Assembly (NCBI GenBank): GCA_017410245.1 | Contig: JAFQRE010000002.1 | Span: 1 to 64,000 of the forward strand | Length of the DNA: 64,000 bases | Origin: Bacteroidaceae bacterium | GTDB taxonomy: Bacteria; Bacteroidota; Bacteroidia; Bacteroidales; Barnesiellaceae_A | Direction of reading: 5' to 3' | Shown: one piece after another, positions 3,558 to 13,571 of the stretch | Layout of the letters: the number at the start of each line of letters is the position of its first letter | How positions within the stretch are numbered: position 1 is the first letter of the stretch | Notes under the pieces: model-generated | Seen by the model: the letters and a program-made list of their open reading frames with translations, nothing else | The model's database searches: none | Told to the model about the DNA's origin: nothing | Translations under genes and position numbers: made by a program

Positions 3558-4259
3558 ATGGTAAAGAAGAGTACGTTAGAATCTATCTTACAAAATGAAA
3601 TGTCCGACTTCTGGGCACTTCTTGATAGTGAAGAAAAACGCATAATTTCCGATAACTTCAAGATTACGAATTACAAGAAAAATGAAGTAATCTATAACGA
3701 AGGCGATCGCCCCTTGCAACTGATGTATCTACTAAAAGGTAAAGTCAAAGTTTACAAAAAGGGTAATGGCGACCGTAACCAGATTATACGTTTAGTCCGT
3801 CCGGGACAATACTTTGGTTATCGTGCCTACTTTGCCAATGAAGCGTATGTAACATCGGGCGCAGCTATTGAGAGCACTCAAGTAGGATTTCTGCCCATGT
3901 CGTTGGTTGAGGAACACATACGTCGCAATAACGACTTGGCGTTTTTCTTCATTCGCGCTCTTGCCAACAACCTTGGACAATCGGACACTCGCACAGTCAA
4001 TCTTACACAAAAACACATTAGAGGTCGCTTGGCCGAGTCGTTGATGGTTCTGTATGACAATTATGGTTATGAGCCAGATAGTACTACTCTTAACATATAT
4101 CTGTCGCGCGAAGATCTTGCCAACTTGTCCAATATGACAACATCTAATGCAATACGCACTCTCACTGCATTTGCATCGGAACAACTCATAACTGTTGATG
4201 GTAGAAAAATAAAAATCCTCAACGAACAAGAACTACGTCATATAAGCAAATACGGATAA
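3558..4259 (+). CDS. Crp/Fnr-family transcriptional regulator
   Basis: This is a 233-residue cyclic-nucleotide-binding-domain regulator. The N-terminal beta roll (about residues 40-125) contains VIYNEGDRPLQLMYLLKGKV and the PGQYFGY turn. A long dimerisation helix (about 125-160) and a C-terminal winged helix (about 165-233) with helix-turn-helix LSREDLANLSNMTTSNAIRT follow. The protein contains no cysteine, so it cannot hold an FNR-type iron-sulfur cluster. The usual cAMP-contacting Arg-Ser pair is not evident, so the ligand is unknown. Arginine is kept at the position of FNR Arg213 in the recognition helix, but the Glu and Ser partners differ. A decayed copy of this gene lies at 6715-6837, and FNR-like palindromes flank that copy, so the neighbouring protease and BspA genes are candidate targets. 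That last link is inference. Confidence 0.93.
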   Translation: MVKKSTLESILQNEMSDFWALLDSEEKRIISDNFKITNYKKNEVIYNEGDRPLQLMYLLKGKVKVYKKGNGDRNQIIRLVRPGQYFGYRAYFANEAYVTSGAAIESTQVGFLPMSLVEEHIRRNNDLAFFFIRALANNLGQSDTRTVNLTQKHIRGRLAESLMVLYDNYGYEPDSTTLNIYLSREDLANLSNMTTSNAIRTLTAFASEQLITVDGRKIKILNEQELRHISKYG

Positions 4260-4366: not shown

Positions 4367-6562
4367 TTACAATCTTATAAGAGTAGAGCCTGAAGTAGCT
4401 GTATCACCGGTGTTGAGTTGTATTGCATATATACCACCAGATAGCTGCGATACATCTACTGTACAACCTCTCGCTTCAGCAACCTTTATTCCATTCATTG
4501 AGTATATCGATATTGACACTGTGCTATCTTCCGGTGTTACGTCATCGGCGAAAAAAACCCTCAATGTTGAACCATCAATTTTAAAATAAGCCTTAAAAGG
4601 CTGATGCTCGTAGAGTTCCGGAATATTGGCCTTCATTTCGAGCACATACAACAAACCCTTGTATGCATCTATCTCACCATACCCATAAGTATTGTTGGGA
4701 TATTCCATTGTATCGTCGGGTTGCTCGGCACAATAGGCTATAATTTTCAAGATATCTTGAGGTGTGAGTGTTGGATCGGCCTCCAGCCACAAAGCTATCG
4801 TTCCGGCTACTACCGGCGATGCCATAGAAGTACCTGATTGTGCCATATAATAATAGTCTTTACCATTATATTTCACTCTATCGGTGAGCGATTTTCTATC
4901 AACATCGGGTGTAGCAGAGAAACTATTATATGCAGCATTGATATTCATTCCTGGAGCCACAACATCGGGCTTTATCAATCCATCAAATGTAGGACCTAAC
5001 GAAGAAAACTTTGCTATGCAACCGGGTGCATCGGGTCGGAATATATCAACATCTGTGTTTTCATTACCATCAATGTTGGTAAAAGTAGATGTGTATCCTG
5101 TAGCTCCTACCGCAATGACAGAAGGTAAAGTTGCCGGCCATGATACAGAATATCCGGGTTGCACACATTCATACTCAGGAATACCTTCTATATTGGCAAA
5201 CGGAGAGTAAAACAAATCGCTATACAGCCAAGCCGGTCCGTTACCAGAAAGTAAGCATGTTGCACCATATAGCATCAAATAGGCCATATTAGGAAAACTA
5301 CCATCTATATGAAAAACATCTCCGCGGGCATCTTCATAGTCACTTTTATATACTCGCAGTTCTATATCGCCGGCACTTACCGTTGCATTCAATACACACG
5401 TATCCTTACCAAGTTTTTTTATACTATCGGTGTTGAAAATAATTGTACCCTCAATATACTGATCGACCAACTTGATACTTAAGAAATCGAAGCGAACCGA
5501 CTGATTGACAGGTGTTACAATATCCATATCTATGATATTTCCACCTCCAATGCCATTGGTAATAGCGACACCGGCTTGTGGCATATCGGTAGGTTTCTCC
5601 ATATAAGGCACCTGATGCCCCATATTGCCACATGCCGCTACAATGATTCGTCCAGGACCTACCAACTGGGCAATAGCCTCGCCTTCAAGAATACGCTGGC
5701 GCGACAATGTTATGCTTTCACAACTACTGAAATTGATGACACAAGGCTTTTGTTCCTTTGCGGCTTTATCAAATAGGTACTTAAATCCTAATACTGCAGT
5801 GGCAGATGTGTGCATACCGGGATTTTCAAAATCGGCTCTGTCCGAATTGAAATCGGCCAAGTATATGTCGCTTTCATAAGCTATACCACCATATTTACCA
5901 TCGACACTCGAACCTGCCATAGTGCTTGCCACATGCGTACCATGAGTAACATTATATGTATATTTTGAGTGTTGGTGTTGCGATATCTCCTTGGGATTAT
6001 CTATTTCACGCCCCTTTGTACCATCACTATTGGGCCAACAGAAGTCATAATAATACTTTATACGGCAATTGCCTTCTTCGTCATAAAATGCAGGGTGGGT
6101 TAAGTCATAATAACAATCGAATATACCCGCTACCACACCTTTACCAGTGAATGCTTGAGGTAGATTAACACCTCTATATATATCGGTAGCATTTATATAT
6201 TCCTTGGTATCATCTACAGCTATACGAGGCATACGCTCGGCCTCAATTCTCTCAATACGGGAATCAGTAGAGAGCGGCAAAATGCTATCTATAGGTATAT
6301 TTACAATGTATATGCGGCCTATACTATCTACCAATTGGCAAGCATATTCTTCAAAGACCGATACATCTCGGTTGCTATCGGTTAGAGCAACAAGAGCCAG
6401 CACATACGATTGAGATGCTGTACCCAAAACACGCTTGGGTAAATCATTGTTCTTCGAGCGCAACATAGTAGCCAAATGTGATGAGAGTTTACTATAATCG
6501 ACCTGCGCCATCGATACTGAATAAAAGGCAAACATTGCCACAACGAATAACAGCTTTTTCAT
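4367..6562 (-). CDS. Secreted S8 (subtilisin-like) serine peptidase with T9SS-type C-terminal domain
   Basis: The 731-residue product has an N-terminal signal peptide (residues 1-19, ending SVSMAQ). The subtilase domain spans about residues 138-640. The catalytic residues are visible: Asp149 in GIFDCYYDLTHPAF, His207 in THGTHVAST and Ser579 in SGTSMASPVVAG, with oxyanion-hole Asn313 in AACGNMG. A long insertion separates Asn313 from Ser579, as in other Bacteroidales subtilases, and may be a PA-like or beta domain. The last 70 residues form a sorting-type module (VSISIYSMNGIKVAEA, GGIYAIQL), which suggests export by the type IX system and attachment at the surface. It is transcribed away from the BspA gene. 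Its promoter region holds an FNR-like palindrome. The substrate is unknown. Confidence 0.92.
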   Translation of the reverse strand: MKKLLFVVAMFAFYSVSMAQVDYSKLSSHLATMLRSKNNDLPKRVLGTASQSYVLALVALTDSNRDVSVFEEYACQLVDSIGRIYIVNIPIDSILPLSTDSRIERIEAERMPRIAVDDTKEYINATDIYRGVNLPQAFTGKGVVAGIFDCYYDLTHPAFYDEEGNCRIKYYYDFCWPNSDGTKGREIDNPKEISQHQHSKYTYNVTHGTHVASTMAGSSVDGKYGGIAYESDIYLADFNSDRADFENPGMHTSATAVLGFKYLFDKAAKEQKPCVINFSSCESITLSRQRILEGEAIAQLVGPGRIIVAACGNMGHQVPYMEKPTDMPQAGVAITNGIGGGNIIDMDIVTPVNQSVRFDFLSIKLVDQYIEGTIIFNTDSIKKLGKDTCVLNATVSAGDIELRVYKSDYEDARGDVFHIDGSFPNMAYLMLYGATCLLSGNGPAWLYSDLFYSPFANIEGIPEYECVQPGYSVSWPATLPSVIAVGATGYTSTFTNIDGNENTDVDIFRPDAPGCIAKFSSLGPTFDGLIKPDVVAPGMNINAAYNSFSATPDVDRKSLTDRVKYNGKDYYYMAQSGTSMASPVVAGTIALWLEADPTLTPQDILKIIAYCAEQPDDTMEYPNNTYGYGEIDAYKGLLYVLEMKANIPELYEHQPFKAYFKIDGSTLRVFFADDVTPEDSTVSISIYSMNGIKVAEARGCTVDVSQLSGGIYAIQLNTGDTATSGSTLIRL

Positions 6563-6593
6563 TTTAAATTTACCATTTTACTATTAATTTTTG

Positions 6594-6601
6594 CAAATAT
6601 A
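6594..6601 (-). promoter_or_regulatory. -7 box of the S8 protease promoter
   Basis: On the minus strand the bases read TATATTTG, an exact TAnnTTTG box, 32 bases before the protease start. No good TTTG -33 element is seen, as would suit an activator-dependent promoter. Confidence 0.6.
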
Positions 6602-6639
6602 TAGAACATATCAAAATATACCAACACTTTATTATTTTT

Positions 6640-6655
6640 TTTGACATATATCAAA
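6640..6655. promoter_or_regulatory. FNR-like palindrome upstream of the S8 protease
   Basis: TTTGACATATATCAAA is a 16-bp dyad with one mismatched pair. It differs from the classic FNR consensus TTGAT-N4-ATCAA at one of ten positions. Its centre is 50 bases upstream of the centre of the protease -7 box, near -57. Binding by the local Crp/Fnr protein is inferred. Confidence 0.5.
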
Positions 6656-6714
6656 TTTCAATAATTGCAACAACATCAAGCATAAATATCTGTCGTTAAT
6701 ATTTTACATGTCAC

Positions 6715-6837
6715 TCGGAAACTCGTATAGTCAATCTTACCCAAGATGCATTCGGGATAGCTTGACCGAGTCCTTGACAGTAGAATAATAAAATACTCAA
6801 CGAACAATAACTGCGCCACATAAGCAAGTACTGATAA
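6715..6837 (+). pseudogene. Decayed 3' copy of the Crp/Fnr gene
   Basis: The stretch aligns in two collinear blocks with the intact crp-type gene: 6715-6781 with 3981-4048, and 6782-6837 with 4203-4259, ending at the same stop codon. By eye about 80 percent of the bases match. The join falls exactly where the intact gene has two copies of GTTGATGGT (4040-4048 and 4194-4202). The copy therefore lost 154 bp between these short repeats, and 154 is not a multiple of three. The first two-thirds of the gene is absent. It cannot encode a regulator. Confidence 0.85.
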
Positions 6838-6889
6838 AGGGAAATTCGCCACACAACCATAATCAAAAAGTAATCTCAAAGCGTGTTTT

Positions 6890-6905
6890 TTTGACCAATG
6901 TCAAA
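6890..6905. promoter_or_regulatory. Perfect FNR-like palindrome upstream of the BspA gene
   Basis: TTTGAC-CAAT-GTCAAA has perfect 6-bp arms around a 4-base spacer. Its centre is 55 bases upstream of the centre of the TATCTTTG -7 box, so about -62 from the predicted start. That is where class I activators of the Crp/Fnr family sit. The match to this family and to the neighbouring regulator is inference. Confidence 0.55.
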
Positions 6906-6948
6906 TAAATACTAACAAATAAATGCATCAAATAAGTTTTATACGATA

Positions 6949-6956
6949 TATCTTTG
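6949..6956 (+). promoter_or_regulatory. -7 box of the BspA-gene promoter
   Basis: TATCTTTG is an exact TAnnTTTG box, 56 bases before the start codon. No matching TTTG is seen at -33, which would fit a promoter needing an activator. Confidence 0.65.
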
Positions 6957-7012
6957 CATCGCGTATTAAATCACAACCAAAAACCAATTAACAATAACAA
7001 GTTTGAAGATTT

Positions 7013-10000
7013 ATGACACATCTAACAAAATTTCTTAGAGCAACACTCTGTCTCATTGCTATGCTGGGTGTAAACGTTGCATTTGCGCAATCGGAAAGTA
7101 TCACAATTTGTGATGGAACAGATGAGAACAGGTACGTTCCATTTTATTTCTATTATTTGGATAATGCTTCAGCCACATCTCAGGTTATTTATCCGGCCTC
7201 TGAGTTGGAGAGTCTGAAAGGCAAACAAATAACAGGTTTAAAATTTTACAATGCAGGATATTCAAGTGCATGGAATAGCAACATGGCTGTTTCACTTGCC
7301 GAAGTCGAATATCAATACCTCTCCGACACCAATGCCAGCTATATTGAGGCCGATTTTACAGAGGTATTTGCAGGAAGTGTATCGGGTGATGAAACCATGA
7401 ATACTCTTGAATTTACATTTACTACGCCCTATGTGTATGGAGGTGAAAATCTTGTTGTAGAAATTAAGAATACAACAGCAGGTAGCACATACATGCAAAT
7501 TCCTTTCTACGGACAACTAGTAGCAGACCACGTCAATGCAACATACGGTTTTGACTCGGTTTTCAAGTACAATCAGAGCTTCCTTCCCAAGGCAACAATA
7601 TCGTATGAAAATGTGGCCGAATATGGTGCAAGAGTATCTACCGACCAATTGAATTTCTCAACAACATTTACCAATTCTACTATTGTCAAGGAGTTCTCTA
7701 TAAGCAATACAGGCTCAAACGATTTGACAGCTCAGATTGCAGGCGTTTCAGCACCTTTCACTATTGAGCATACCGAGTTGAGCATACCTTCGCTCACTAC
7801 AGTGACTATTCCTGTCACTTTTGCTCCCACTGCCGATGGCGAATACAACCAAACAGCCACAATAGCACTTGGAGAAGCCGGAACATTTGAAGTAAAACTG
7901 ACAGGCAACTCAATGTCGGCACCTACCGGATATACACAAGCATTTGATGTAACAGATAAAACCCTACCCGAGGATTGGGCCGGTTGGAATATCAAGGGTA
8001 CCTATGACTATGATATCTATGACTATGTATTTGAGTCGGCTGAACGTCATACCGAATATTTTGTAGGCAAAGAGATAGACGGTGTGAAAGCTGTATCGAT
8101 ATACGAAGATGCCAACCCTCGTCGCGAATATCCCAGTCAGTACACCATATACATGATTTCGCCCGAAGTAAGCGGCAATATAATGATAACTGCGCGTGGC
8201 ACTTACTCGGAATATACCTCGGGCGAGATTAAGTTATTCAAGGCCATAGAGAATGCAGATAGTACTTTCACTATCGAGGAAGAGCCTTTGGAAGTAACTT
8301 GGCTACCCGAATTTAACAATCAAGAGTGGAGCAATGGTGTCTTGACACTTAACGAAAGCAGCCGCATTGCCATCTTTATGTCGTATGGTGCAGTTTCTAT
8401 GTTTGCTGCAGACCAACTCGCCTCAGCCCCTACCGTTGAACTTGCTATAGGCGAAAAATTCACTCAAGAAGGTATCACTTATATTGTAAAAGAAAACCGC
8501 ACGTTGGGTGTAACAAGTGTATCGAACGAAGTAACAAATTGTATTATACCCGAAATAGTAACTGAGAATAGAGTTGATTATACCGTAGTATCGATAGAAG
8601 AAGAGGCATTCTACTGGAGCAACGTGGAGACAGTCACTCTACCCAATACTATTATAGAAATAGGTTATGGTGCATTCAGGGTATCACCTTTGAGGTCTAT
8701 AAACTTACCCCAAGGTCTGCAAAAGATAGGTGAATACGCCTTCTATAAAACTCAATTGAGTACTATCACTATTCCCGAAGGTATCACAGCCATAGAAGCA
8801 TCAACATTTGCTCAATGCGAATCGCTGACCGAAATAACACTGCCCTCGACATTGGAGAAAATAGGTCAAGGTGCTTTCTACAAATGTAGTATAAACAACA
8901 TTGATATACCCGCCAACTGCTCAACCATCGGTATGTATGCTTTTGAAAGCTGTTCACAACTCAACAGCATTACGTTGCCCACAGCTATGACAGAAATACC
9001 CATGGGACTCTTCCAAGACTGTACATCACTTACTGAGATAACAATACCCGAGAATGTAACTACAATAAAAACAGCTGCATTCCAAAACGTAGGAATTACA
9101 GCCATACACTTCCCTATGAATGTGAATGCTATTGAAGCAAATACATTCAACCACACTAACATTACAACCATCACCGCAGATGCAAACAACAATACATTCA
9201 CTGTTATTGATGGAGCACTTTATACAACCGACAAACGCTTTATCTATCTCTATCCTCGCACTACCGAGAGCAAGCGTTATGATATCATAGAGGGTTGTGT
9301 TGCCGTATGGGGCGGTGCATTCTATGGTTGTGATGTCACAGAGGTAACATTCCCCGAAGGTTTTATTGGTATTGATGCGTATGCGTTCTGTTTATCACAA
9401 CTTCAAACGGTTGAACTCCCCCACTCTATTGAGGCCATTTGGGAACAAGCCTTTGCCGGTACTAAACTTACAACTATTGTTGTACCCGATGGTGTAACAC
9501 AACTATATGAGGCCGTATTTGCATCATGCGAAAATCTCACTACTGTAACATTGCCCGCCGGCCTTACCGATGTTGGTAACAGAGCATTCTACCAATGTAC
9601 AGCCCTCAAAGAAATCAATTGCTTGGGTACAACACCTGCCGAGTTTGATGCATGGGAAACTTATACCGATCCCTTCTTTGGAGTAGATTGCAGTCAAGTT
9701 ACCATCAAATGTCCTTATGACGCAGTTGAAGATTACAAACTGAGTGAGTGGGGCGATTTCTTTACTAACATAGAGGCTGCCGATGGTAGTGGTATCACAC
9801 ATACTGCCCATGATAACTTCATTATAACATCAAGTAATGGTACAATATGTGTAGATGCAAACAGCCATGAGCCATACAACATTGTCATATCGACAATAAG
9901 TGGCAGCATCGTTTGTAACGCAACCAACCATCAAGGCATCTTTGTCACACACAACCTGGCTCAAGGTGTTTATATAGTAGTTGTAGAAGATAAAAACTCA

Positions 10001-10027
10001 AAAGAGGTTGCAAAGATAATCCTATAA
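7013..10027 (+). CDS. Large BspA-type leucine-rich-repeat secreted protein with T9SS-type tag
   Basis: The 1004-residue product starts with a signal peptide (about residues 1-25, ending NVAFAQ). An N-terminal beta-rich region (about 26-203) is followed by an Ig-like choice-of-anchor D/ASPM-type domain (about 204-300, LNFSTTF ... FSISNTGSNDLTAQI ... VTFAPTADGEY). A jelly-roll-like region (about 305-475) comes next. From about residue 505 to 890 there are many BspA-type repeats (LRR_5; pattern ITIPEGITAIEASTFAQCESL). The C-terminus (about 930-1004, ending LAQGVYIVVVEDKN) is a sorting-type module. Such proteins are surface or secreted adhesins in other Bacteroidales; the ligand here is unknown. 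The promoter carries a perfect FNR-like palindrome. No frameshift is seen across the repeats. Confidence 0.9.
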   Translation: MTHLTKFLRATLCLIAMLGVNVAFAQSESITICDGTDENRYVPFYFYYLDNASATSQVIYPASELESLKGKQITGLKFYNAGYSSAWNSNMAVSLAEVEYQYLSDTNASYIEADFTEVFAGSVSGDETMNTLEFTFTTPYVYGGENLVVEIKNTTAGSTYMQIPFYGQLVADHVNATYGFDSVFKYNQSFLPKATISYENVAEYGARVSTDQLNFSTTFTNSTIVKEFSISNTGSNDLTAQIAGVSAPFTIEHTELSIPSLTTVTIPVTFAPTADGEYNQTATIALGEAGTFEVKLTGNSMSAPTGYTQAFDVTDKTLPEDWAGWNIKGTYDYDIYDYVFESAERHTEYFVGKEIDGVKAVSIYEDANPRREYPSQYTIYMISPEVSGNIMITARGTYSEYTSGEIKLFKAIENADSTFTIEEEPLEVTWLPEFNNQEWSNGVLTLNESSRIAIFMSYGAVSMFAADQLASAPTVELAIGEKFTQEGITYIVKENRTLGVTSVSNEVTNCIIPEIVTENRVDYTVVSIEEEAFYWSNVETVTLPNTIIEIGYGAFRVSPLRSINLPQGLQKIGEYAFYKTQLSTITIPEGITAIEASTFAQCESLTEITLPSTLEKIGQGAFYKCSINNIDIPANCSTIGMYAFESCSQLNSITLPTAMTEIPMGLFQDCTSLTEITIPENVTTIKTAAFQNVGITAIHFPMNVNAIEANTFNHTNITTITADANNNTFTVIDGALYTTDKRFIYLYPRTTESKRYDIIEGCVAVWGGAFYGCDVTEVTFPEGFIGIDAYAFCLSQLQTVELPHSIEAIWEQAFAGTKLTTIVVPDGVTQLYEAVFASCENLTTVTLPAGLTDVGNRAFYQCTALKEINCLGTTPAEFDAWETYTDPFFGVDCSQVTIKCPYDAVEDYKLSEWGDFFTNIEAADGSGITHTAHDNFIITSSNGTICVDANSHEPYNIVISTISGSIVCNATNHQGIFVTHNLAQGVYIVVVEDKNSKEVAKIIL

Positions 10028-10110: not shown

Positions 10111-10343
10111 GAGAGGACACATCTCAGATATAATGATGTGTCCTCTCGCGTTCAGACTAATACAACATTCATTATCAATAATTATATGTACCGGCAACGA
10201 AGTTCCACTGACTTGCCACCATGCGTAGGTTGGTATCGCCTTCGGTGCTGAAATCGGATATCTGATTGTAACGACAATCTTCATACTGCCGGTGCAATTG
10301 AGTATCTTGAGATGTGATGTAGAGGTAATAGAACGTTAGGTGA
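10111..10343 (-). pseudogene. Truncated copy of the 3' end of the LRR gene, with its terminator hairpin
   Basis: On the minus strand this repeats the end of the LRR gene at 12495-13571. Bases 10148 to about 10276 match 12469 to about 12597 almost exactly, including the last codons, the stop and the downstream sequence. Bases 10285-10343 then match 13089-13147, so the middle of the gene is missing. The C-terminal residues TNLRMVASQWNFVAGTYNY are kept in frame. The hairpin after the stop (10111-10122 with 10136-10147) parallels that at 12432-12468. The junction GATTGTAACGACAAT resembles another repeat unit (12962-12976), so recombination between LRR repeats may have made the deletion. Confidence 0.85.
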
Positions 10344-10415
10344 GGCAATGAGGAGAATATCACCACAGCGAAAGAAGTGTTACAGCTTATATTATAGATG
10401 TGTTTGTAAGTATTA

Positions 10416-10593: not shown

Positions 10594-12075
10594 TTATATT
10601 ACGACTTTAATGCATGAAGAGTTGTTGATACGAACGATATAAACACCTTGAGTTAGTTCACTAAGATTGGCTACACCTCCTTCAACTGCTACCTGATTAA
10701 CCAAGGATCCATTTAGAGAATAGACTCTTACTACGCAACAATCATTCAAACCACTAAGTTGCTTGCTTGCAGAGTTGAAAGTATATGAATCAATAAGGTT
10801 ACTCTCTAAGCCATTACTTTCGTCCATAAATATTACTTCACCGAGAGCATTATTGTCGGCCTTATGAGTGATAACCGTCTCTATCTCTTCTGCAGTTTGA
10901 TTGGCGACATTCCACGTATTACCTTGAGCATAAACTGTATTAGTACCATTGTTATAGAGGTCATATAGTTGACCACCATTGCCATTATCTACAAATACAT
11001 TGCGACCGGGATTATAATCAGATGCAGATTTATCAACCTCAGTCTTACCCACATTTACATTTTTACCGCCGATGATAGTAATACCCCACAGGCTATTTTC
11101 GATGTAATTACCTTCAATATATACATCTTGCGCATAGTTAGTATCGTAGATGCTTATACCACTACCACCATTCATTGCGTTGGTTTCATGATTGTTATTA
11201 ACCATGTGATTGTTTATAATACGCACGTTCAATGCACCAAGTGTAGTTATACCATAACGATGTTCAGTCAATGTGTTACCCTCTATAAGAACGTTATTAG
11301 TACCTGCAATATCCATCATATTAGATACTGAAATACCACCTACTTTATCACGTTGTGCGCCTTCAAAAGTAGAGTTTTTGATAACTATATCATTGTTTCC
11401 ACCTGCAGTAAGATTGACTTGTGGTTTGTTACGATTTTCGGTATTATTATCACGGAATAAGCAATTTTCTATAGTTAGAGCAACCGCCACATTGGCTCCA
11501 GTACCTACAGCCGGTACAATATTTTCTATGAAATCACAATCGCTAATAACATAAGAACCATCAGACAAGTTGATAGCTAAAGCACCAGATGAGCTTGATG
11601 CACCATTGTTGTAAACAAACTGACAATTTTTCATTTCCATTGAAGCTGTCATAAAAGCGCGAAGACCTGCATATTCAAAGCGTATGTTAGTAAGCTTATA
11701 TGTAAAGTCTGTCAATTCGGTATTGATATAAAAACCCTTGGGTTCATCTGTTTCGGCATTTTTTGTAATAGTGGTGAGATCAGTACAATCAAAGTTAGCC
11801 TCTCCTGCAATAGTCAGTTGTGCATTATTACCCATCTTTAAAGTAACACCATTGTCTAAAGTAAATGAGTCACCGGCCTCAATGGTTATATCACCATCTA
11901 ACACATATACACCATCACTTTCGAGCGACACTCCACTACCTGATGTTTCAGCAAGGAGTTGCAATGTATAATTGGTACCATCTCCAAGTGTGGTATAACT
12001 TTCAGCAACAGCAGCTACAGTAACAGATGCCAATACTGAAATGCACAAAAATTTAGTAAAGTTTTTCATAAGCAT
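10594..12075 (-). CDS. Secreted parallel beta-helix protein with T9SS-type tag
   Basis: The 493-residue product has a signal peptide (hydrophobic stretch around residues 7-24). A right-handed parallel beta-helix fills about residues 60-400. Its short repeating strands end in asparagine-rich turns, for example NNDIVIKNSTFEGA, TNNVLIEGNTLTEHRYGI and LNVRIINNHMVNNN, the PbH1 pattern of pectate-lyase-like and NosD-like folds. No lyase active-site cluster was recognised, so an enzymatic role is not claimed. The C-terminus (ending ELTQGVYIVRINNSS) matches the sorting module of the other secreted proteins here. ATG codons at 12075 and 12069 are both possible starts. The gene lies between the intact LRR gene and its truncated copy. 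Function is unknown. Confidence 0.85.
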   Translation of the reverse strand: MLMKNFTKFLCISVLASVTVAAVAESYTTLGDGTNYTLQLLAETSGSGVSLESDGVYVLDGDITIEAGDSFTLDNGVTLKMGNNAQLTIAGEANFDCTDLTTITKNAETDEPKGFYINTELTDFTYKLTNIRFEYAGLRAFMTASMEMKNCQFVYNNGASSSSGALAINLSDGSYVISDCDFIENIVPAVGTGANVAVALTIENCLFRDNNTENRNKPQVNLTAGGNNDIVIKNSTFEGAQRDKVGGISVSNMMDIAGTNNVLIEGNTLTEHRYGITTLGALNVRIINNHMVNNNHETNAMNGGSGISIYDTNYAQDVYIEGNYIENSLWGITIIGGKNVNVGKTEVDKSASDYNPGRNVFVDNGNGGQLYDLYNNGTNTVYAQGNTWNVANQTAEEIETVITHKADNNALGEVIFMDESNGLESNLIDSYTFNSASKQLSGLNDCCVVRVYSLNGSLVNQVAVEGGVANLSELTQGVYIVRINNSSCIKVVI

Positions 12076-12494: not shown

Positions 12495-13571
12495 TCAATA
12501 ATTATATGTACCTGCAACGAAGTTCCACTGACTTGCCACCATGCGTAGGTTGGTATCGCCTTCGGTGCGGAAATCGGATATCTGATTATACCTACAATTG
12601 ACATACATGAGATTGGGACAATGCGAAACATCAAGTGTCATAAGCTGATTATTGTTGCAAACAACGCGCTCGAGCATAAGCAGACCGCTAAGATTGAGGC
12701 TTGACAAGTCGTTGTACGAACAATCGATAAACGACAATTTGTTTGTACCCTCAAGGTCTATGGCTGTAAGGTCATTGTATGAACAGACCAAATCGAGCAA
12801 AGCAGTGCAATTGACCAGCGCCAATTGTGTCATATTGTTTTCGCTACAAGCAAGTGTTACCAATGATGCCAAGTCTTGTATATAGAGTTTCTCGATATTG
12901 TTATTATCGATATTGAGATGTTTGAGAGCATCGGTACCTACCAGCGTGAGCGAAGTGAGTCGATTGTAACCACAATATAGCGTCTTGAGGCTGGCACAGC
13001 TATCTACATCGAGATGTTCGAGATGACAATTCTGCACATATAATGTCTCGAGCATAGGAGCTCCACTTGCACTGAACGACACAAATAGATTGCCTGTACA
13101 ATTGAGCATCTTGAGACGAGGTGTAGAGGTAATAGAAAGTTCGGTGAGTCGGTTCCGATAACAGTTCAATGCTACAAGCATGGGGCAATTGTCCAGATCC
13201 AACTCTGCGAGATGATTATGACTGACATCGACCGACTGCAAAGAAGTACAACCCGACACATCGAGCATAGTTATCTCATTATGAGCGACATTGAGTGTTT
13301 GTAGTGCTACAAAACCGGCCAGATTGAGTTGTCCCGACAACTTATGGTCATGCCAATCTATCGCTGTGACACGCCCATCTCCGTTCCACGTCACGCCCCT
13401 CCATGCCGCCGGATTATCAAGCGGAACACTCAAGAGCATATAGTTAGGTTTACCATGCGCCGATTGCGACTGGAGAAACGCTTTAAGTTGAGTCACTTCC
13501 TTTTTGTTTGGCGCTGCATTGATAGCCAATGAGAATAGAATGACGGTTGCAGCAAGCAAAATTCTTTTCAT
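12495..13571 (-). CDS. Secreted leucine-rich-repeat protein
   Basis: The 358-residue product has a signal peptide (MKRILLAATVILFSLAINAA, cleavage near residue 20). After a short helical stretch it consists of about 10 leucine-rich repeats of roughly 21 residues (LDVSGCTSLQSVDVSHNHLA type, with conserved Cys and Asn), ending NFVAGTYNY. It lacks the C-terminal sorting module seen in four other secreted genes of this region. LRR solenoids bind proteins or glycans; the partner is unknown. A truncated copy of its 3' end lies downstream, beyond the beta-helix gene. Confidence 0.87.
   Translation of the reverse strand: MKRILLAATVILFSLAINAAPNKKEVTQLKAFLQSQSAHGKPNYMLLSVPLDNPAAWRGVTWNGDGRVTAIDWHDHKLSGQLNLAGFVALQTLNVAHNEITMLDVSGCTSLQSVDVSHNHLAELDLDNCPMLVALNCYRNRLTELSITSTPRLKMLNCTGNLFVSFSASGAPMLETLYVQNCHLEHLDVDSCASLKTLYCGYNRLTSLTLVGTDALKHLNIDNNNIEKLYIQDLASLVTLACSENNMTQLALVNCTALLDLVCSYNDLTAIDLEGTNKLSFIDCSYNDLSSLNLSGLLMLERVVCNNNQLMTLDVSHCPNLMYVNCRYNQISDFRTEGDTNLRMVASQWNFVAGTYNY

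Follow-up and report, generated by a model that had tools for sequence, protein, structure and literature searches.

The divergent intergenic region between a subtilase gene and a BspA-like gene in this Bacteroidaceae DNA (hereafter the window, the whole stretch of 64 kb) carries two FNR-like palindromes, which lie close to a Crp/Fnr-family gene (RegA) and to a decayed copy of that gene. This raises the question of which regulator reads the palindromes and how far the corresponding regulon extends. The sequence-only reading had proposed a small local regulon in which RegA controls two exported, T9SS-tagged surface proteins. The source genus is uncultured and close to Barnesiella; the closest named records are MAGs from ruminant guts that bear the label "Bacteroidaceae bacterium", followed by Barnesiella and Coprobacter. 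Nine genomes of the genus (G000 to G008) formed the comparison set, and a family-level search returned just those nine.

Palindromes and promoters at the protease/BspA locus

Both palindromes and both -7 boxes were found at the positions first noted for them (Table 1), and the centre-to-centre distances from palindrome to box, 50 bases for the protease and 55 bases for the BspA-like gene, are correct. The pattern TTTGAYNNNNRTCAAA has two matches in the 64 kb window, which are the two palindromes, against 0.06 expected, and two matches were reached in one of 100 dinucleotide shuffles of the window. With at most one mismatch to TTTGACNNNNGTCAAA, the 2.53 Mb genome holds four places, including the two palindromes, compared with one for the reversed motif, which served as the control in genome-wide site counts. 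Palindrome 1 has the top score of all positions in the 1.3 Mb of this genome that were scanned, a portion partly chosen for holding sites, with a PWM trained on other genomes only. No box close to the Crp-like TGTGA-N6-TCACA was identified at RegA or in the intergenic region. The TTGAY-N4-RTCAA dyad is present beyond chance, and the comparison of sequences supports the earlier view that the palindromes are Crp/Fnr-type sites at the promoters of two exported proteins. The lack of a -33 TTTG, which had been regarded as a distinctive trait of these two promoters, is shared by 14 of the 21 TAnnTTTG boxes in the window according to a simple test; a missing -33 was rejected as a mark of activator dependence because it is not distinctive.

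Both flanking proteins had been described as T9SS-tagged. This holds for the BspA-like protein, which scores 26.0 bits against TIGR04183 (cut-off 23), whereas the tail of the protease is weak, with a Por_Secre_tail score of 25.7 bits below the cut-off of 27. Full-length orthologues of the S8 protease occur in G000, G002, G003, G004 and G007, and all five carry the palindrome at the matching upstream position, including the G003 gene, which is 59% identical and unlinked. In four of the five, the site centre is 45-46 bases away from a TAnnTTTG box; the exact box is lost in the G004 copy. The BspA site is kept in G003, at the same 51 bases, and is thus seen in two genomes. In G004, the 235-base stretch that separates the palindromes is 97% identical and adjoins a 98% identical protease.

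Table 1. Coordinates of features at the locus and of the putative small RNA; positions without a locus prefix refer to the window.
Feature	Sequence	Position	Strand	Remarks
Palindrome 1	TTTGACATATATCAAA	6640-6655	.	Putative Crp/Fnr-type site, protease promoter; centre 46 bases before first T of -7 box
Palindrome 2	TTTGACCAATGTCAAA	6890-6905	.	Putative Crp/Fnr-type site, BspA-like promoter; centre 51 bases before -7 box
-7 box, protease promoter	TATATTTG	6594-6601	-	
-7 box, BspA-like promoter	TATCTTTG	6949-6956	+	
RegA		3558-4259	+	Crp/Fnr-family regulator, CrpPg orthologue (PG0396, PDB 2GAU)
S8 (subtilase) protease		4367-6562	-	731 aa, signal peptide, weak T9SS type A tail; Peptidase_S8 E 2.4e-35
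BspA-type leucine-rich-repeat surface protein		7013-10027	+	1004 aa, T9SS type A tail; LRR_5 E 6.5e-84
Decayed copy of RegA 3' part		6712-6837	+	RegA nt 421-487 and 638-702
Putative small RNA, ~115 nt		L302:2912-3028	-	
Putative small RNA, ~115 nt		L303:2872-2987	-	
Putative small RNA, ~115 nt		L047:3429-3541	+	
Putative small RNA, ~115 nt		L195:2803-2914	-	

The decayed Crp/Fnr copy that had been noted beside the protease is real and matches the 3' part of RegA at 78-83%, and the protease is flanked by this copy and by the intact RegA, whose copied part spans 3978-4259. Farther along the window, the 3' end of an LRR gene (12495-13571) is duplicated at 10113-10344, flanking a T9SS gene that encodes a 493-aa protein (10594-12075); in this duplication, 10113-10344 pairs with 12434-12606/13091-13148. 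In G003 both inserts are missing, and the gene order there is RegA-BspA-LRR. Each of the two T9SS-type genes, for the protease and for the 493-aa protein, is flanked by the duplicated 3' end of its neighbour, as if one type of recombination had inserted both. The decayed copy has the look of a recombination scar and not of a part of the circuit. In G004 (C47, L042:9486-10186; also L212 and L214), another RegA copy, interrupted by a frameshift, is located beside the 98% identical protease; next to this copy are a short ORF that may be a fragment of an integrase and a piece of trxB (L212).

Sites and target genes across the genus

The dyad TTGAY-N4-RTCAA has 28 matches in this genome, compared with one for the reversed control. 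Eleven PWM matches in the 1.3 Mb scanned score above 16 bits, all of them outside called genes of at least 120 aa, and ten of these face a TAnnTTTG -7 box at a distance of 29-68 bases; matches below 16 bits lie mostly within genes and have no box. Nine of the ten box-facing promoters precede genes with a signal peptide as called by a simple home-made rule, against a background of 34.5% (p 4.8e-4), and the exception is a nitroreductase gene. T9SS type A tails above the curated cut-off are present in BspA, in an adhesin encoded next to the Crp/Fnr paralogue RegB, in a 473-aa protein encoded next to a second paralogue, RegC, and in a 152-aa protein. The tails of the protease and of the 810-aa and 1069-aa target proteins score below the cut-off, and no type A tail was found in the 432-aa and 431-aa target proteins. 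A few site-bearing promoters precede genes for non-secreted proteins, namely nitroreductase, CoA-transferase and phosphotransacetylase.

Across the nine genomes, 47 sites with a -7 box in the near range were identified, compared with one for the reversed control, and 18 in the next, farther range, compared with three. Near-range matches reach a density of 2.65 per Mb in G000-G007; the figure for 146 other genomes of the order is 0.42 per Mb. The notion of a small local regulon is not supported, since the site recurs at about ten promoters in this genome and at orthologous promoters throughout the genus.

Measured between the centre of a site and the first T of its box, the distances form clusters at 29-30, 46, 56-57, 66-68 and 78 bases. 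If the start of the -7 box is taken as -12, as mapped in Flavobacterium (PMC9723704), a distance of 29 equals the class II position of -41.5; the 29-30 cluster is class II-like and overlaps the -33 position, and the series at 46, 56-57, 66-68 and 78 bases is class I-like. The steps of this upstream series are one DNA turn apart (Rayleigh p about 2e-4, or 2.5e-4 when maximised over the period), in distance groups that were chosen after seeing the data and partly by eye. For the regulon as a whole, the sites thus keep fixed distances upstream of the promoter that are in phase with the helix. Class I geometry fits the protease site, which occupies the nearest step of the series, but not the BspA site, which at 51 bases falls between steps and is shifted by half a turn relative to the series.

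Genomes G002, G005, G006 and G007 contain a site, 30 bases before a -7 box, that has no protein gene behind it. A putative small RNA (Table 1) follows this box; its 39-base core is identical in four of four genomes, its terminator hairpin shows compensatory changes at four pairs, and it has no Rfam match above a family's gathering score. Upstream of porP-porK-porL in G004 (C18, L301:3938), a -7 box with a site 46 bases ahead of it is followed by ~130 nt and a strong terminator, and this unit is possibly another small RNA. The T9SS machine itself was considered as a target and rejected: an intrinsic terminator separates the G004 site from the por genes, and porP of G000 is without a site.

Candidate readers of the sites

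RegB (191-195 aa) encodes the FNR-type recognition helix ISQETLSR (ETLSR), and RegC the helix ISQSHLSR (SHLSR). Both proteins end shortly after this helix, RegB about nine residues after SRI, and neither matches the full HTH_Crp_2 expected of a complete winged helix-turn-helix. RegB contains a cNMP-binding domain (PF00027, 54 bits) with a fold match to Crp proteins, which its predicted overall fold also matches; a helix-turn-helix is predicted at 166-188 with low confidence, in a part where the structure model is poor. Residues C56 and C112 are conserved in the alignment, and there is no N-terminal FNR cluster. A close parallel is 3DN7 of Cytophaga hutchinsonii, which matches RegB nearly end to end in sequence and in the fold of the effector domain.

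In eight of the nine genomes, RegB is divergent from a T9SS adhesin gene with a site between the two, and this site also precedes the -7 box of the RegB gene's own promoter, at 26-35 bases. In the six genomes in which TTTGATGTACATCAAA was found, RegC precedes its own T9SS cargo gene and this sequence lies between the two, at a distance of 46 bases to the box; in G001, RegC is absent and there is no site at 46. The contrasting genome is G008, which has RegA, lacks both RegB and RegC, and contains no near-range site-plus-box match and one farther-range match in a short, doubtful ORF. Judged by gene neighbourhood, by the residues of the helix and by this pattern of co-occurrence with its single contrasting genome, the likeliest reader of the sites appears to be RegB or RegC, two unlinked short Crp/Fnr paralogues.

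RegA is a full-length homologue of CrpPg (236 bits against 2GAU, aligned over 14-232, with SNMT-SNAIRTL common to both and the helix-turn-helix conserved) and occurs in nine of nine genomes. It has no cysteine, as had been noticed from its translation, and with no residues for an iron-sulfur cluster it is not an oxygen-sensing FNR. The initial proposal that RegA reads both palindromes, as a CrpPg-type regulator of adjacent surface proteins, is unlikely. RegA adjoins sites in G000, G002, G003 and G007, TGA/TCA cores are common to Crp-like and FNR-like boxes, and CrpPg affects the mfa fimbriae and rgpA, a T9SS cargo gene, in P. gingivalis (PMC12040651). However, the RegA helix TSNAIR is without the FNR-type E and S, and CrpPg, which reportedly prefers an E. 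coli-Crp-like box, uses it to bind its own and the mfa promoters (PMC12040651). RegA also persists in G008, has no site beside it in G001, G004 (main copy), G005, G006 or G008, and carries no such palindrome at its own promoter; in Barnesiella and Coprobacter it lies beside trxB with no palindrome nearby, and the G003 protease retains its site while unlinked to RegA. The palindromes are probably read by a protein other than RegA.

The other three of the six cNMP-domain proteins of this genome, RegE (L298), RegD (L045) and RegF (L304), also adjoin genes for secreted, partly T9SS-type, proteins, and no clear palindrome was found between each of them and its neighbouring secreted-protein gene.

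Overall, we consider it likely that the two palindromes belong to a regulon found across the genus, whose targets are mostly T9SS-type surface proteins with a signal peptide and which is activated by a Crp/Fnr-type dimer, with RegB or RegC as the likeliest reader. We infer binding, activation as opposed to repression, and which paralogue acts where. The dimer would bind the palindromes at the protease and BspA-like promoters and would most likely activate transcription of both genes, and the site would act in a class II-like manner at about -41.5 or in a class I-like manner in one-turn steps upstream. It is improbable that the sites are instead repression operators of a Crp/Fnr-type protein: although the site at the RegB promoter could mean autorepression and the BspA site is out of phase, clusters at about -41.5 and in one-turn steps are an activator pattern, and the class II-like sites overlap the -33 position. 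Despite the A+T-rich setting and the duplicated DNA nearby, it is very improbable that the palindromes are chance inverted repeats, terminators or mobile-DNA remnants, a reading rejected on conservation and phase, with 0.06 matches expected in the window, 47 site-plus-box matches against one control, and fixed-distance conservation in diverged orthologues, including the unlinked 59% identical protease.

Relation to known systems and significance

FNR, delta-proteobacterial HcpR and DNR recognize TTGAC-N4-GTCAA or TTGAT-N4-ATCAA dyads in class II or class I geometry (HcpR and DNR box consensus from PMC1274295), similar to the sites described here, and RegB likewise keeps their E-x-x-S-R helix. 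Unlike them, RegB and RegC are short and end just past the recognition helix, and most of the targets in this genus are secreted proteins of T9SS type, not hcp or denitrification genes. HcpR2 of Bacteroides is predicted to use GTAAC-N4-GTTAC (PMC1274295). CrpPg is a clear homologue of RegA, but RegA is conserved where the palindromes are absent. PorXY/SigP and ECF sigma control also coordinates T9SS genes in Bacteroidota (PMC9723704); it acts at ECF-type promoters of the secretion machine, whereas here a Crp/Fnr dyad is located at cargo promoters. Our literature search, which was limited to open-access papers, found no Crp/Fnr regulon of T9SS cargo and no described target site or regulon for the 3DN7-like short Bacteroidota Crp/Fnr subfamily.

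A broader proposal, to which we give slightly less than an even chance, is that a family of short wingless Crp/Fnr proteins, each beside its own T9SS cargo, recognizes one common FNR-like box and governs the secreted surface proteome in this genus, together with a conserved small RNA on the same box. With the present results, a widespread and little-characterised short subfamily of Bacteroidota Crp/Fnr proteins gains a candidate target site, a promoter geometry and a gene list. Class I and class II activation becomes testable on Bacteroidota promoters of the TAnnTTTG type, about which little is known in this respect. The findings further suggest that a one-component regulator may coordinate the expression of T9SS cargo, separately from PorXY/SigP, which controls the secretion machine.
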